From positions 1 to 20,202 of the IMG/VR virus record IMGVR_UViG_3300022927_000162: a DNA stretch of 20,202 nt; one strand, written 5' to 3'. The notes under the pieces were generated by a model, which was given only the letters and a program-made list of their open reading frames with translations, was not told the DNA's origin and did no database searches. A program made the translations under genes and the position numbers. This DNA comes from a virus. Positions 5,466-17,957 of the stretch are shown here, piece after piece (positions within the stretch are counted from its first letter, which is position 1; each line of letters begins with the position of its first letter).

Positions 5466-5956
5466 TAGGCTCTCCTCATCATGTAATAATCTTTTTTATC
5501 TTGACTAAACGCCCTGAGCAAGCCTTCTTCCCTGAAACCTAAAAAGCTTGCCCATGACATTGCCCTTTTATCCTCTGATCGTACAGTAATTTGTAGTCTA
5601 TGTAAAGTATATAATATCTCGCAGATATCAAAGAATGTATTAGCACCTTTAGTCATAGCTATTGGGTATCTTCTAGCTTGCTCAGAAAAGATAGACCACG
5701 CTTCACCAACGCCATTCCACAATAAGACAAGACCAAAAATAGCGACTGGACGGTTATCAAGATACGCAGTAACACTAGGACCACACTGAGACTGATGTAT
5801 GATACGTTGTTCTCGAACCTCTGGAGGTACTTGCGCAATCCCATAAGCATCTAACCCCTCAAATGTTTTAAGATGTAGTGGATCAAATAACACATACCCA
5901 CCATTTTTAACTTTGGGCATATATTCATTTAATATTTCCCTAGTGATTAAAGACAT
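5465..5956 (-). CDS. T7 gp13-like (DUF2833) protein with acetyltransferase fold
   Basis: A 163-residue protein matching the DUF2833/phage gp13 family, which resembles GNAT acetyltransferases. Key blocks are: GPSVTAYLDNRPVAIFGLV (about 60-78) with WNGVGEAWSIFS next; RYPIAMTKGANTFFDICE; LHRLQITVRSEDKRAMSWASFLGFREEGLLRAF (about 118-148); and a terminal DYYMMRRA. T7 gp13 is needed for virion maturation, and whether this family has catalytic acetyl transfer is not established. I choose ATG 5956 over the TTG one codon earlier. It overlaps the end of the terminase gene by 17 bases and lacks a clear ribosome binding site, suggesting coupled translation. Confidence 0.85.
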   Translation of the reverse strand: MSLITREILNEYMPKVKNGGYVLFDPLHLKTFEGLDAYGIAQVPPEVREQRIIHQSQCGPSVTAYLDNRPVAIFGLVLLWNGVGEAWSIFSEQARRYPIAMTKGANTFFDICEILYTLHRLQITVRSEDKRAMSWASFLGFREEGLLRAFSQDKKDYYMMRRA

Positions 5957-7499
5957 CAAAATCTGCGTTTACGACTGTTTGAGATATCAATGTATTCTGT
6001 GACAGGCCTGATTTAGTCATTCTCTTATGCTCACCACCACCTAGTAAGAGATAACCAAATGCATCACCAATGTGTGAGTGTTCATTTTTGTTTGGTGCAT
6101 CTTTAAATCGCTCTTGTCCAGCACCAATATTAACTCGCTTAAAATGATAACCACCCGCTAATGATTTACGAATACCTTTACAAGATGTATGTACTAACAA
6201 CCCTGGCTTGCCTTGTATTAATCTTTGCATTGGCGCTGCTGCAGCTTCTCGTCTTACCTTGAAATTGTTAGATGCAGTTGGTTGTGCTTTTAATCCAATC
6301 GTACGTAAATAATCAAATGCAGTCACTTCATAGATGGCATCTCGTTGCATACCTGCTGGATCTCCCCACACCATCAATTGTGCTTTAGGGTAACGAGCAT
6401 TGATTTCAGCAAGCAACTGCTGCCCAAATCTTTCTAAGCCCATATCCTCAGTAATAATCTCATGCAGAATAATCCAACGACCATTAGCTTGTCGTTGCCC
6501 AATCGCCGCTGCTGGTGTTAAACCAAAGTCAAGTCCAATATGTAATGGAAGTGTTGGATCATATTCTACCTCTGATGAACTCATTAAATTATCTTCGTAC
6601 TCAGGCCATACAGGTCGACCTTCTTGTACATAAGTATACTTGCCTTCAGCATAACAGCGAATCCAATCTAAGTTTTTACCACCTAGCATTTGAGAGTAAT
6701 AACCACCCGGTAAGTTGTTTACATTCTCTGCTCGTGGATTTATCCTCCACCAACGACCACCCGCAAAGATGTGATCGTTAGCTTCAGGATTATCAGGTAA
6801 GTCACCAGGATCAACCTCTACGACTCCACCAGGTTGTTTAAAGAAGTCCCACCCATACTTACCTGTAATCGGTTCTTTTTCAGATAGTCTAAACCACCAA
6901 TGGTCATCATCCATTGGGTTAGTATCCATCCATACCCCATGCCATGTTGGTCCACCATCTTTTTGAGTTGGGTATCGACCAACTCGATGTGTCAATCCAT
7001 CAATCACAGCTTTAGGTAATTCTCTTGCTTCGTTCACCCATGCGCCTGTTAATTCTAGTGAGAGTAATTTACGAACATCTTTAGGTTGGTCCAATGCCAA
7101 GAAGATCACTTCACAGTCTATGCCAGCGGCATCGCCACGGGAGGGTAGGCGTATATGGTGAGTGATTGGAGGTGTATATAACATCGGACCAAAAGTGTTT
7201 TCAGGAAATAGCTCTTGCCATGTTTTAATCGTTGTTGTTTTTAATTCAGGGTAAGAGTTCCTGACAATTACAAATCGAGTGTAACGAATACCATCAACAG
7301 GAGATGGCTTTTGTTTTACAGCTCGCATCATTATTTCAGCAGCACACGCATAAGACTTGCCTGAACCCACAGGCCCCATTAGTCCGCGAACGAACGCATT
7401 GGATTGGAGAAAATTATATGTCGTACGCGCGCCACTGAAATCTAAATCTATCCCAGGACCAGCTAGTTGTTTTTTACTACGTTCTTTCTTATTGCTCAT
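5940..7499 (-). CDS. terL: Terminase large subunit (TerL), ATPase and nuclease
   Basis: A 519-residue packaging motor. Walker A is GPVGSGKS at 42-49. The Walker B/catalytic region is LELTGAWVNEARE, with Glu about 157. The RNase H-like nuclease shows acidic residues in HIGLDFGLTPA (Asp324), MVWGDPAG (Asp380) and SHIGDAFGYLLLGG (Asp479). The protein pumps DNA into the prohead through the portal and cuts concatemers. Length and motif order are normal and no lesion is visible. The ATG lies inside the last codons of a tiny upstream gene (overlap 11 bases) and has a poor Shine-Dalgarno. Portal, scaffold and the gp13-like gene follow downstream, as expected for a packaging/head module. Confidence 0.97.
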   Translation of the reverse strand: MSNKKERSKKQLAGPGIDLDFSGARTTYNFLQSNAFVRGLMGPVGSGKSYACAAEIMMRAVKQKPSPVDGIRYTRFVIVRNSYPELKTTTIKTWQELFPENTFGPMLYTPPITHHIRLPSRGDAAGIDCEVIFLALDQPKDVRKLLSLELTGAWVNEARELPKAVIDGLTHRVGRYPTQKDGGPTWHGVWMDTNPMDDDHWWFRLSEKEPITGKYGWDFFKQPGGVVEVDPGDLPDNPEANDHIFAGGRWWRINPRAENVNNLPGGYYSQMLGGKNLDWIRCYAEGKYTYVQEGRPVWPEYEDNLMSSSEVEYDPTLPLHIGLDFGLTPAAAIGQRQANGRWIILHEIITEDMGLERFGQQLLAEINARYPKAQLMVWGDPAGMQRDAIYEVTAFDYLRTIGLKAQPTASNNFKVRREAAAAPMQRLIQGKPGLLVHTSCKGIRKSLAGGYHFKRVNIGAGQERFKDAPNKNEHSHIGDAFGYLLLGGGEHKRMTKSGLSQNTLISQTVVNADFDVFNH

Positions 7500-9545: not shown

Positions 9546-9816
9546 ATAGATCTCCTACATATTTATTGCGGACTTTTTTACTCGGCCGTCCACGACTCCG
9601 TACTTCATTCTTATGCTCTGCTTCTACATCTCGTTTACATAACTCAATCATCTTGAGCCAAGTACCAGCATCGATCTCCTTCATGCCATGCCCTGTATAA
9701 CCCTTAGTCATTTTCCAATAACCACCCGGATCAGTAAACTTATAATCTAACCGCTTACCATCATTAAACTCATCACATACGAGCTTGTAAAATTCACGTA
9801 ATGTTTTGTAAGATAT
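9532..9816 (-). CDS. Conserved-looking ORF without a standard start codon
   Basis: The frame is open from just after a TAA to a TGA at 9532-9534 and reads like a real protein: SYKTLREFYKLVCDEFNDGK, YKFTDPGGYWKMTKGYTGHG, TWLKMIELCKRDVEAEH, and a basic tail SRGRPSKKVRNKY. There is no ATG, GTG or TTG before residue 36. A perfect GGAGGT sits eight bases before an ATA codon (9814-9816), so an AUA start giving 94 residues is the best fit to the Shine-Dalgarno. The alternative is ATG 9711, giving 59 residues with only a weak GGTGG upstream. It overlaps the end of the methyltransferase gene by 23 bases. Function unknown; the basic tail suggests nucleic-acid binding. Confidence 0.55.
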   Translation of the reverse strand: MSYKTLREFYKLVCDEFNDGKRLDYKFTDPGGYWKMTKGYTGHGMKEIDAGTWLKMIELCKRDVEAEHKNEVRSRGRPSKKVRNKYVGDLYERP

Positions 9817-11023
9817 GTTTAATTACCTCCACTGTCCAACCATTACCTAACATCTTATATCTTTGTGTATTCGATACACCTTCTGTATAACCATCAGGTA
9901 CAGTCTGTAATCGTTCACACTCTAGTGGTGTTAGTTTTCTGTAATAGTATTGCTCTTTATTAATTACACCATTTGGTCTCGCTGCACGTAATGTAAATGC
10001 TTTCTTTTCTCGTACAGCATTGCCAAAGTTTTTACTGTTGTTCATTTGTGTTGCTAATACTTTTTCTTTAGACTCATCTCGTAACTTAATATAGTTTTCT
10101 TTATGAGCTTGCTCATTCTTATAGACAACCACATTGTCTTTTTGTACAGATGTTAATGTATTAGTTTTATCATCCTTACGAATCTCTAGCTGTTGCTTCG
10201 TTGATCCATCTTCTTCGTATCGACCACGAAATGCACCACAAGATACTTTAGGTTGACGATTACCCCCATTCATAGAATTTAGAGTAGGTGATTTACCTTC
10301 AGGACTATAGATTCTTTTCAATATATCATGGCCATTAATATCAGATGCCATGCCAACTTGGATAGGTCTATCTTTATTTTCTACTAAGGTCATGCCATTA
10401 TTACCCGCACCCTTCCACATCGTAGCAGTACAAGTTAATGCTTTTTGGTCATCTTGTTTATAATGTCTTTGATTCCTGGCTGTGTCCTTAACATCATCAC
10501 CAATGTAATCGGTTTCTAATATATGTTTTAACACAATGCCTTTATCTTCAGGTTGAGTAATGTTTGGTATATTAGTCCAATACAATCGTATTCTATTTTG
10601 TGCAGATACTAATCCACTATTAATAATGACAGGCTTGACTCCTAAATGTTCAGAAATGACATCTTGATACTCTTGTTTCATTCTGACATTCTCAAGTAAA
10701 AAGTATTTAGGATTACATTCTTTTAACAATCTGACAAATTCAAAGAATAATGCTGATCTTGGATCATCAAAGTTTAACTGCTTGCCCGCAAAACTAAAGC
10801 CTTGACAGGGTGAACCACCTAATAATAAATCAATCTGTGGTAAATCTTCTGCTTTAACCTTAGTCACATCACCTAGATGGATTGTATCCGGGTAATTATT
10901 CTGTGTAATACGCATAGCATACGGATCAATCTCTGCTGCATAGTATTTATTTACAGGTATACCTAACTGATCTAAAGCGATTTGACCACAACTCATCCCG
11001 TCGAATAGACTTAGTACATTCAT
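9794..11023 (-). CDS. DNA cytosine C5-methyltransferase
   Basis: A 409-residue enzyme that transfers a methyl group from S-adenosylmethionine to carbon 5 of cytosine. Motif I is NVLSLFDGMSCGQIAL (2-17). Motif IV with the catalytic Cys is GGSPCQGFSFAG (Cys73). Motif VI is LLENVRM (Glu111). Motif VIII is QNRIRLYWTNIP. Motifs IX-X are LECERLQTVPDGYT and RYKMLGNGWTVEVIKHIL at the C-terminus. The long region between VIII and IX (about 170-360) is the target-recognition domain, so specificity cannot be read by eye. No restriction endonuclease lies beside it, so it is a solitary phage methylase, likely protecting phage DNA from host restriction or altering packaging or transcription. Start overlaps the previous stop (ATGA). 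Confidence 0.97.
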   Translation of the reverse strand: MNVLSLFDGMSCGQIALDQLGIPVNKYYAAEIDPYAMRITQNNYPDTIHLGDVTKVKAEDLPQIDLLLGGSPCQGFSFAGKQLNFDDPRSALFFEFVRLLKECNPKYFLLENVRMKQEYQDVISEHLGVKPVIINSGLVSAQNRIRLYWTNIPNITQPEDKGIVLKHILETDYIGDDVKDTARNQRHYKQDDQKALTCTATMWKGAGNNGMTLVENKDRPIQVGMASDINGHDILKRIYSPEGKSPTLNSMNGGNRQPKVSCGAFRGRYEEDGSTKQQLEIRKDDKTNTLTSVQKDNVVVYKNEQAHKENYIKLRDESKEKVLATQMNNSKNFGNAVREKKAFTLRAARPNGVINKEQYYYRKLTPLECERLQTVPDGYTEGVSNTQRYKMLGNGWTVEVIKHILQNIT

Positions 11024-15376: not shown

Positions 15377-15579
15377 TGGAAGACATTGGATATGAAGGAG
15401 CAGACTTTTGGCAACATATTCAAGAGCTTGAGCAACAAGAGTCAGAAGAAGCTATTGATGATTTCTTTTTTAAAGGCATTGTTGATACAAGAGTTCGTTC
15501 TAAAGCAAGACGTAAAGCATTAATGAAAATATATTATGGAGATAAAGATGGAAAAACAGAAAACCTCGGAGATTGTTAG
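15376..15579 (+). CDS. Small protein of unknown function between exonuclease and annealing protein
   Basis: A 67-residue product. The first half is acidic (MEDIGYEGADFWQHIQELEQ, then EEAIDDFFF) and the second basic (VRSKARRKALMKIYYGDKDG). It starts in a TAATG overlap with the exonuclease stop and has GGAGG seven bases upstream, so it is clearly expressed. It overlaps the next gene by 32 bases. No family recognised. The position suggests a partner of the recombination pair, which is inference. Confidence 0.8.
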   Translation: MEDIGYEGADFWQHIQELEQQESEEAIDDFFFKGIVDTRVRSKARRKALMKIYYGDKDGKTENLGDC

Positions 15580-16225
15580 TCACATCATGGATCACATTGC
15601 GGCTTTGCACGAGTCGCATGGTGTTCCACAAAAAGGCAACAAAAAATACACTCAAGTCGTACACCGAATGGAAGCCTTCAGAAAAGCTGTTGGCTTTGAC
15701 TATGGTGTGACAACTGAGATCGTTGTTGATGATGGTCAGAGGGTAGTGTTAAAAGCTACCATTCATGACACATCAGGCCATATCATAGGCACAGGTTTTG
15801 CAGAAGAAATCCGTGGTAAAGGGTTAGTCAATACTACCTCGGCTCTAGAAAATGCAGAGACCAGTGCGATTGGTCGTGCATTAGCTGCACTTGGCCTGTC
15901 AGGTGGTGAGTATGCATCACTCAATGAAATGGATGCAGTAGGAAGAAAGACTGAAGCTATTGCAGAACAAAAGAAGACTACAATCACATTGCTACGACCT
16001 AAGCAAGATCCTGTTGAGGTCAAGGATGCTGATGAGTTAGTCAAGGTGATGATTGAGTTAGCGAAGAAAGTGTCGCAGCAAGAGAAGGGTACAGTTAGTC
16101 AGAAGACAGGCTACATCCAAGAATTGCAAGCGATGAACGAAAAAACCCTAGGTTCACTAGGGCCTGATCGTTTGATGGCAGTCAAGTTTGACTTTGATAC
16201 CATCGTTCGTACATTAAATCAATAA
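15548..16225 (+). CDS. ERF-family single-strand annealing protein
   Basis: A 225-residue protein from ATG 15548, where GGAG lies six bases upstream; the ATG at 15536 overlaps this site. The core (about 25-135) contains VVHRMEAFRKAVGFDYGVTT, strands VVDDGQRVVLKATIHD and IIGTGFAEEIRG, and LVNTTSALENAETSAIGRAL then AALGLSGGEYAS. 'T.S..En.eTSAiGRALa.lG' is the hallmark of ERF/Sak-type annealing proteins. It would coat single strands made by YqaJ and anneal them. The C-terminus (helical, VKVMIELAKKVSQQEKG to RTLNQ) is probably for protein contacts. Its 3' end contains, on the other strand, the terminator of the pqqA-like gene. Confidence 0.87.
   Translation: MEKQKTSEIVSHIMDHIAALHESHGVPQKGNKKYTQVVHRMEAFRKAVGFDYGVTTEIVVDDGQRVVLKATIHDTSGHIIGTGFAEEIRGKGLVNTTSALENAETSAIGRALAALGLSGGEYASLNEMDAVGRKTEAIAEQKKTTITLLRPKQDPVEVKDADELVKVMIELAKKVSQQEKGTVSQKTGYIQELQAMNEKTLGSLGPDRLMAVKFDFDTIVRTLNQ
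16140..16163 (-). terminator. Intrinsic terminator for the pqqA-like gene, inside the annealing-protein gene
   Basis: On the minus strand the six-base stem CCCTAG / CTAGGG with loop TGAAC is followed directly by TTTTTT (16145-16140), a classical rho-independent terminator. It lies 63 bases beyond the pqqA-like stop and acts only for leftward RNA. On the plus strand the A-run precedes the hairpin, so rightward transcription is not stopped. Confidence 0.8.
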
Positions 16226-16297
16226 TTACTTATTGCAGATGTACATTGTTACTTCAAAACCGAAACGCATTTCAGTTGCTTTTGGTGCTGTCCACAT
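16226..16297 (-). CDS. pqqA: PqqA-like PQQ precursor peptide
   Basis: A 23-codon gene whose product starts MWTAPKATEMRFG and ends FEVTMYICNK. PqqA is the ribosomal peptide from which pyrroloquinoline quinone is made. PqqE, with the PqqD chaperone, links a Glu and a Tyr spaced E-x-x-x-Y, and the rest is cut away. Here Glu15 and Tyr19 have exactly that spacing. The MW start, the 'R.GfEVTmY' core, an N-(K/R) end and the length of 23 all match bacterial PqqA as I know it. AAGGAG lies six bases before the ATG, and an intrinsic terminator follows at 16163-16140. It is convergent with the annealing-protein gene (stops abut) and divergent from the 16380 gene. No pqqB-F genes are in the window, so the host's pathway would be needed. 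Confidence 0.87.
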   Translation of the reverse strand: MWTAPKATEMRFGFEVTMYICNK

Positions 16298-16379
16298 AGT
16301 GTTCTCCTTATTTGTGAGATATCATTGTGGCATGTAATGGTGTACATCGCATCAATAAATTCATGAGTTGGAGATAAAT
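16298..16379. promoter_or_regulatory. Divergent spacer between the pqqA-like gene and the next rightward gene
   Basis: The 82-base spacer holds both ribosome sites (AAGGAG leftward, GGAG rightward) and an inverted repeat ATGTA/TACAT (16332-16347). TGTACAT here also echoes the palindrome ATGTACAT at 16239-16246 inside the pqqA-like gene, so the two could be paired regulator sites. No strong sigma70 promoter was found for the leftward gene; the best minus-strand guess, TGTACA (16347-16342) with GATATC after 17 bases, is poor. Confidence 0.35.
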
Positions 16380-16655
16380 ATGGATCACTATCCAATTATA
16401 GACATAAGCGAATCACAGTTACTTAATAACCCAAAGCCTGATAACTTTCCTGTCAGATTGTTACAAGGTATTTTACATCAAGCAGTACGAGACATTCTCA
16501 GTTGTGATGTGTCCCAGGATAGTCGTATGAAAGCACTAGAATGGTTGTCAGATTACGATGATGAGATGTTGCAATTGTGTTTAAGTGTATGTAATATAGA
16601 TTATGAACACATGATGTTAAGGTTAATGAAGGATAAGTGGAATTTAAGTTTATAG
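16380..16655 (+). CDS. Small phage protein of unknown function
   Basis: A 91-residue acidic, helical protein. ATG 16380 is chosen over the TTG at 16368 because GGAG lies six bases upstream of it. The main block is FPVRLLQGILHQAVRDILSC, DSRMKALEWLSD and LQLCLSVCNIDYEHMMLRLM. The pattern 'Ll.avl.qAv.D......r..Al.WL......lCl.v.gid' is one I have seen in unannotated phage proteins. Two Cys pairs lie in the C-terminal half. It overlaps the next gene by 19 bases. Confidence 0.8.
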   Translation: MDHYPIIDISESQLLNNPKPDNFPVRLLQGILHQAVRDILSCDVSQDSRMKALEWLSDYDDEMLQLCLSVCNIDYEHMMLRLMKDKWNLSL

Positions 16656-17043: not shown

Positions 17044-17274
17044 TCAGTGAGTAACGTCAGGTTTTGGGTTTAACACATACATGTCCATGTTTTGACCATA
17101 AATCAGCATGTAGTCGTGATCTTGTTCTGAAAACTGTATCTTGATAGCTGTGTCATCTTTGTCTTCTAGTATTTCTATGTTCCAAATCTTACGACCAATC
17201 AAACCATCAATGACTTTTGCTTGCTCTGCATCGAGTTCTGATATTGTTTGTACTAAACTATCTTCTGTATCCAT
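17044..17274 (-). CDS. Small protein of unknown function after the phosphoesterase
   Basis: A 76-residue acidic protein: MDTEDSLVQTISELDAEQAK, VIDGLIGRKIWNIEILEDKD, then alternating strands DTAIKIQFSEQDHDYMLIYG and MYVLNPKPD. The layout is one helix followed by a four-strand sheet. I do not recognise it. The ATG has AGGA nine bases upstream and overlaps the phosphoesterase gene by 22 bases, so it is the last gene of the leftward unit. Confidence 0.75.
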   Translation of the reverse strand: MDTEDSLVQTISELDAEQAKVIDGLIGRKIWNIEILEDKDDTAIKIQFSEQDHDYMLIYGQNMDMYVLNPKPDVTH

Positions 17275-17957
17275 CGACCACCATCCTTTAATACCATCGG
17301 CATGAGTTTAGGTTGACCGTCCAGGATCATGCCACATCCTATAACGAACCGAGATTTGAAGTTCTTAGCATACTCAAATGCTAATTCCTTCTGATTGATA
17401 AGGCATCCGACTTGCATACCCCATACTAACTTATCAGGATTAGAATAGTATTCAATCTTAAACTTGGAGTGGTAGTGGCCTTGACACGTGGACATCCCAT
17501 ACTGGGCAGCCACCTTCATCACATCGCTGGCCATTCCATGAGTAAAGAAACATCTTTGTCCATCGGATAGAGTAACAGTTAAATCATCTACCCATCTCCA
17601 ACCATCATCTACTTGGAGAAACTCATTATAGGATTTTAGATACTCAAGACTCAGGCCATGTGCAACAGCTTTACGATAGACCAATGATGAATGATTCGAG
17701 TGAACAATCGTCATCTCAGGAAAGATCTTCTGTAGTTCTTGGCAATAGACACGAGCTTCTCTTAACTCATCACCGGGTGACTTTAGATCAGGGTGGTGAT
17801 TATGAAAAGAGATAGCATGCTGATCGATCTCATCTCCAATGTTGACAACGAGATCAGGCTTGTATTTTTTCTTCAGTGCTTTCAGGAAATCAAAAGCATC
17901 TGGATGGTGATAAGGGATGTGCAGATCCGAGATCACTAAGACCGATTTGTAGCTCAT
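17253..17957 (-). CDS. Calcineurin-like metallophosphoesterase
   Basis: A 234-residue enzyme with the full set of two-metal phosphoesterase motifs: ISDLHIPYHH (Asp11, His13), NIGDEIDQH (Gly41-Asp42, Asp45), IVHSNHSS (Asn88, His89), FFTHGMA (His140) and CQGHYHSKF (His161, His163). Substrate cannot be read from sequence; phage members are proposed to act on nucleic acid ends, nucleotides or signalling molecules. Length is usual. It follows the holin-like gene by 17 bases and precedes the small 76-residue gene. No clear ribosome binding site is visible. Confidence 0.93.
   Translation of the reverse strand: MSYKSVLVISDLHIPYHHPDAFDFLKALKKKYKPDLVVNIGDEIDQHAISFHNHHPDLKSPGDELREARVYCQELQKIFPEMTIVHSNHSSLVYRKAVAHGLSLEYLKSYNEFLQVDDGWRWVDDLTVTLSDGQRCFFTHGMASDVMKVAAQYGMSTCQGHYHSKFKIEYYSNPDKLVWGMQVGCLINQKELAFEYAKNFKSRFVIGCGMILDGQPKLMPMVLKDGGRWIQKIV

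Follow-up and report, generated by a model that had tools for sequence, protein, structure and literature searches.

A stand-alone pqqA gene in a MEP301-type phage and its recurrence among methylophages

Introduction

Why would a phage carry a gene for PqqA, the precursor peptide of PQQ, standing apart from pqqBCDE? The question is raised by a 23-codon gene in a 20.2-kb virus record (IMGVR_UViG_3300022927_000162, positions 1 to 20,202; this whole stretch of 20,202 nucleotides is called the window below). PqqA is a consumed substrate: PqqE joins a Glu and a Tyr of the peptide, with PqqD acting as chaperone (Barr et al. 2016, as cited in PMC9851590). Here, we examine whether the gene is a genuine pqqA, how widely it occurs among phages, whether its codons are constrained, and what the likely hosts would gain or lose from an additional supply of the peptide.

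Results

The window carries a genuine pqqA gene

A sequence-only reading of the window had described a short ORF with a strong Shine-Dalgarno sequence, a PqqA-like product, and the E-x-x-x-Y motif. The ORF lies at exactly the coordinates given by that reading, on the minus strand, which had been left unstated, and the Shine-Dalgarno sequence is as strong as described. The features of the locus and of the surrounding phage genes are:

16226–16297 (stop included), minus strand: pqqA, 23-residue PQQ precursor peptide MWTAPKATEMRFGFEVTMYICNK, from ORF translation and profile matches
16304–16309, minus strand: Shine-Dalgarno sequence AAGGAG, 6 nt 5' of the pqqA ATG
16298–16367, minus strand: pqqA upstream region of 70 nt, presumably holding the promoter
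16143–16165, minus strand: putative intrinsic-terminator-like hairpin, 9 pairs followed by TTTTTTC, 60 nt past the pqqA stop
15536–16225, plus strand: probable ERF-like single-strand annealing protein gene, from synteny beside YqaJ and weak similarity to the ERF of relatives
16368–16655, plus strand: conserved small gene homologous to MEP301 gp07; divergent from pqqA, with which it lies head to head
17253–17957, minus strand: calcineurin-like metallophosphoesterase, conserved, on the far side of the variable pqqA interval
5940–7499, minus strand: terminase large subunit (TerL), 87% identical to that of OM43 phage MEP301

Glu15 and Tyr19 of the translated ORF have the E-x3-Y spacing of the pair joined by PqqE. 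In profile searches, the peptide scored 41.4 bits against Pfam PqqA PF08042 (E = 1.3e-10, 19 of 19 model positions) and 44.3 bits against NCBIfam TIGR02107, for which the curated cut-offs are 21.1 and 20 bits, respectively. With scores about twice both cut-offs, the window ORF is a genuine PqqA, and its identity and motif agree with the earlier reading. A degenerate PqqA pattern occurred once in the window and in none of 100 shuffles, and the ORF is not a chance one because its relatives recur in many phages with substitutions biased to the third codon position. Neither the window gene nor the pqqA genes of the other phage loci examined show the usual adjacency to pqqBCDE, but this is no real bar to PqqA status because the host strain HTCC2181 also separates pqqA from pqqBCDE.

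Alignment with alphaproteobacterial PqqA had been suggested; the kinship to PqqA stood, but the relevant relatives are those of Methylophilaceae and not an alphaproteobacterial pool. The window peptide and the PqqA of the Methylophilaceae hosts HTCC2181 and KB13 (PF08042/TIGR02107) share their length, the MWT-x-P start, the ATEMRFGFEVTMY core, and Glu15/Tyr19; 19–20 of the 23 residues are identical, and both come from stand-alone genes. The window peptide differs in being phage encoded and in having A4, K6, and I20, which are absent from the OM43 host copies examined.

The pqqA and ERF-like genes converge, their two stops touching, and pqqA opposes both neighbours in orientation. A sigma-70 search of the 70 nt upstream of pqqA gave nothing above chance. 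One terminator-like hairpin was found near the gene against 0.2 expected in 400 bp; this hairpin is a candidate only because it is embedded in the ERF-like gene, at its 3' end.

The window is part of a MEP301-type phage

TerL identity places the window as a piece of a MEP301-type phage, and both genomes have a head-tail connector, a RecE/YqaJ-like exonuclease, a resolvase-type recombinase, and a metallophosphoesterase. A DNA methyltransferase gene (phrog_116) at 9794–11023 on the minus strand of the window is not apparent in the MEP301 annotation. MEP301 was isolated on the OM43 strain HTCC2181 (PMC8024684), and because this type relative grew on HTCC2181, the host of the window phage is probably also an OM43-like member of the Methylophilaceae. 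Contamination by host DNA was considered and rejected: isolate genomes carry pqqA as well, and the window has terminase, head-tail connector, and recombination genes.

pqqA recurs across methylophage lineages

A tblastn search with the window peptide matched 12 of 50,697 phage records. Nine were Methylophilales isolates with a confident PqqA (MEP301, MEP401, MEP402, Venkman, P19250A, and four Melnitz), which is every Methylophilales phage isolate identified in the collection; in MEP301, the gene is unannotated and adjoins that phage's own ERF gene. The tenth confident match was MW202481, a Venkman-like record with a TerL 74% identical to that of Venkman. The other two records, both from Acinetobacter phage MD-2021a, were rejected as a further example because the record examined is probably a misfiled bacterial contig. 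Filed as phage, that record (CAKLQF020000010.1) contains ppk together with a whole operon of pqqABCDE and looks bacterial.

The carriers span five lineages. MEP301, Venkman, P19250A, and MEP402 have at most weak local similarity in TerL or capsid, and the fifth lineage, Melnitz, was counted by its myovirus/Kyanoviridae class. The nearest relatives from other hosts in the same collection (SAR11 pelagiphages in the case of Venkman and Vibrio phage ICP2 in that of MEP402) yielded no PqqA match, and therefore pqqA follows the host and not the phage family. The gene is absent from the full-length MEP402-like record MW202697.

In IMG/VR, at least 120 contigs with pqqA were retrieved by the degenerate DNA pattern, and all encode PqqA ORFs of 23–25 residues. 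The pattern fixes W2, P5, G13, E15, V16, T17, and Y19 and restricts positions 11, 12, 14, and 18, so conservation at these positions is not evidence; T8, E9, M10, N22, and K23, which the pattern leaves free, are also conserved among the matches listed. A Shine-Dalgarno sequence precedes 121 of 127 pqqA ORFs, counting the matches listed and a few from other loci. When MEP301-type contigs were picked by TerL and not by pqqA, the gene was present in 9 of 11 informative contigs, at varying sites. The two without it, G221 and G225, are nearly full length, which indicates that pqqA is dispensable. Contigs picked by the ERF of the window added four more with the peptide MWTTPKATEVRFGFE[VI]TMYVCNK; a same-peptide scan for an exact sister of the window peptide found none. 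The prediction that related phages should keep both the ORF and its Glu/Tyr motif is thus borne out in MEP301-type contigs, isolates, and ERF-selected relatives alike.

More divergent PqqA peptides, for example MKWETPSFEDLRFGFEVTMYINASN or MKWSKPTYQKLRLGFEVTMYFKQV, were seen in phage contigs L027, L030, and L082 (also L005, L065, and L084). The first three have terminase or portal genes, and the phages probably infect other PQQ-making hosts. Such divergent peptides would suit a re-purposed PqqA that feeds PqqE or PqqD for another end product or target, such as a host signal or an influence on PQQ export and competition over public goods, and PQQ is taken up by non-producing bacteria as well (PMC12124388). 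The methylophage peptides, however, are near-identical to host PqqA along their whole length, and no recurring partner gene was found beside methylophage pqqA in the loci examined. Re-purposing is the least probable of the explanations weighed in this study.

Phage pqqA codons are under purifying selection

Selection was assessed on 15 phage pqqA genes that had not been selected by the degenerate pattern. Across this set, pN/pS was 0.18 (0.17 inside the MEP301 type), Glu15 and Tyr19 were kept in every gene, and polymorphic sites at codon positions 1, 2, and 3 numbered 7, 6, and 17 (p = 0.007, with shared ancestry ignored). Phage pqqA codons are under purifying selection, as the low pN/pS and the third-position excess show and as had been proposed for related phages. 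An attachment-site role was also considered and rejected: the position of pqqA is not fixed, and synonymous changes are common.

These values bear on whether pqqA is a passive hitch-hiker, that is, a short host gene lately acquired by chance or a homology patch for recombination that does nothing for the phage. Its position does differ between phages, and the window gene shares a 36-nt exact run with the host copies HTCC2181c and KB13c. The longest run common to MEP301 and its own host, however, is only 24 nt, which indicates that the protein and not the DNA is conserved. Set against pN/pS, third-position bias, recurrence in five lineages, Shine-Dalgarno sequences, and terminators, passive carriage appears quite improbable.

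Among the matches listed, pqqA is followed by a perfect-stem terminator at a distance of at most 110 nt in 57/122 cases compared with 3/122 in shuffled sequence, and pqqA opposes both neighbours in 44/104. In a search for a conserved promoter in the relatives, sigma-70-like matches occurred in 31% of pqqA upstream regions, hardly above the 22 ± 4% in shuffles. Orientation independent of the neighbours and a candidate terminator of its own are moron-like traits. The gene also has the marks of an auxiliary metabolic gene (AMG): it is homologous to a host gene, the genome that carries it is truly that of a phage, the host has the remaining steps of the pathway, and the gene is patchy and dispensable. 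No PqqE above the cut-off was detected in 46 pqqA-bearing phage records, full isolate genomes included, and no PqqB–E in the stretches of phage loci around pqqA.

The gene had been suspected to be short enough for gene callers to miss, and no examined record annotates it on the right strand: in seven true phage records, pqqA is unannotated or masked by an opposite-strand call (Melnitz, MW202481). The opposite-strand hypothetical proteins at Melnitz 2461–2556 and MW202481 2067–2195 are probably false calls that hide pqqA. No PHROGs family was found for phage pqqA.

Hosts have pqqBCDE, several pqqA copies, and a PQQ-dependent enzyme

The pqqB, C, D, and E genes of HTCC2181 form one operon without an adjacent pqqA, and the strain has three stand-alone pqqA copies, two of them in tandem. 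The tandem pair, approximately 180–200 bp apart, was seen in OM43 genomes together with a solo copy, which in HTCC2181 follows an ammonium-transporter gene. Among 150 Methylophilaceae genomes, PqqE exceeded the cut-off in 140 and PqqA was present in 149, and all but eight have at least two pqqA copies; 3–12 copies alongside a single pqqBCDE have been described for the family (PMC4109929). Methylotrophs of the OM43 type are abundant on coasts, where they use methanol, and their xoxF ranks with the most highly transcribed genes of coastal seawater; OM43 xoxF is invariably the most abundant transcript (PMC5120137), and pelagic Methylophilaceae have XoxF4-1 only (PMC6794327). A phage-borne pqqA would have made little sense in a host without pqq genes or a use for PQQ, and these hosts have pqqBCDE and depend on the PQQ enzyme XoxF (PMC5120137, PMC6794327).

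The phage peptides compared are identical to OM43 host copies at 19–23 of 23 residues, and that of P19250A equals the host copy HTCC2181c exactly. This similarity bears on a decoy role, in which phage PqqA would titrate PqqD/PqqE and lower or redirect PQQ synthesis, for example by stopping methanol oxidation or freeing SAM. A 23-residue peptide translated from a strong Shine-Dalgarno sequence could outnumber the host peptide, and the sequence is compatible with inhibition. A competent substrate, however, would be converted and would not block the enzyme; both reactive residues are present in all 15 pattern-free phage genes; and one methylophage contig adds xoxF itself, which points to more methanol oxidation, not less. 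We therefore regard a decoy as very improbable; supply of PqqA is better supported, given that the phage peptides retain the reactive residues and match host copies fully or almost fully.

xoxF was found in only one of 50 pqqA-bearing records searched. This phage-like contig, G019 (IMGVR_UViG_3300025120_009955, 72 kb), has pqqA and a full xoxF-type methanol dehydrogenase gene with 82–88% DNA identity to host xoxF, the homology being confined to the gene. It also has a formate-dehydrogenase-like molybdopterin enzyme beside xoxF, ribonucleotide reductase, and GroEL, and it resembles the methanol-dehydrogenase viruses of Lake Baikal.

Discussion

Phage pqqA is likely to be a stand-alone AMG of OM43-like methylophages that tops up PqqA for PQQ-dependent methanol oxidation by XoxF. 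An extra supply of PqqA had been the favoured interpretation from the outset, and the ORF and motif kept in relatives, the purifying selection, and the pqqBCDE genes of the hosts support it at the level of sequence. The infecting phage would make PqqA, which host PqqD would hand to PqqE for linkage of Glu15 to Tyr19; host proteases, PqqB, and PqqC would then complete PQQ. With the added PQQ, the methanol dehydrogenase XoxF in the periplasm would stay charged and thereby provide energy and carbon for phage replication. One PqqA is spent per PQQ whereas the enzymes turn over, so that no other single gene would maintain or increase PQQ flux as cheaply after the decay of host transcripts. Through their multiple pqqA copies, the hosts appear to follow the same course, and recurrence in unrelated methylophages suggests that the methanol-oxidising enzyme is kept supplied during infection.

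Cell extract converts added PqqA to PQQ (Wang 2021, as cited in PMC9851590). As a caveat to supply by pqqA only, overexpression of pqqAB in Acetobacter raised PQQ by 29%, and that of the whole cluster eightfold (PMC7936290). The gain in PQQ from pqqA alone may thus be modest.

Cyanophage AMGs such as psbA, phoH, and mazG are host-derived genes considered to keep the metabolism of the infected host going. Phage pqqA is alike in its host origin and its presumed support of the infected host, but it supplies a consumable peptide substrate and not an enzyme or structural protein. The closest published case is the Lake Baikal virus VP_266, which infects Methylophilaceae and whose PqqA gene was put forward as an AMG for methanol oxidation (Coutinho et al. 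2020, PMC7678222). The same benefit is proposed for both phages, but VP_266 is T4-like and also encodes methanol dehydrogenase, whereas the window comes from a small short-tailed MEP301-type phage. Phage pqqA is therefore already a known kind of gene. What appear to be new are its recurrence across unrelated methylophages, its host-linked breadth, its stand-alone arrangement, and the systematic lack of annotation. The isolate papers for MEP301, MEP401/402, and Melnitz make no mention of pqqA, and no survey of phage pqqA was found in the open-access full-text literature. AMG surveys undercount small-peptide genes, given that this 23-codon gene, present in all the methylophage isolates identified, is unannotated in the records examined, unmentioned in those isolate papers, and absent from PHROGs.

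The cultured pairs MEP301/HTCC2181 and Venkman and Melnitz with H5P1 make the supply idea testable. If phages of OM43-type methylotrophs routinely bring PqqA, infection may have a direct influence on methanol oxidation by way of the supply of its cofactor. We lean, by a little, towards the broader proposal that pqqA is near-universal and host-tracking in methylophages and was gained independently in at least five lineages, feeding the pathway a consumable precursor and not an enzyme, in keeping with the multi-copy hosts. If that is true, the production of viruses in methanol-oxidising plankton would be limited quite generally by PQQ supply.
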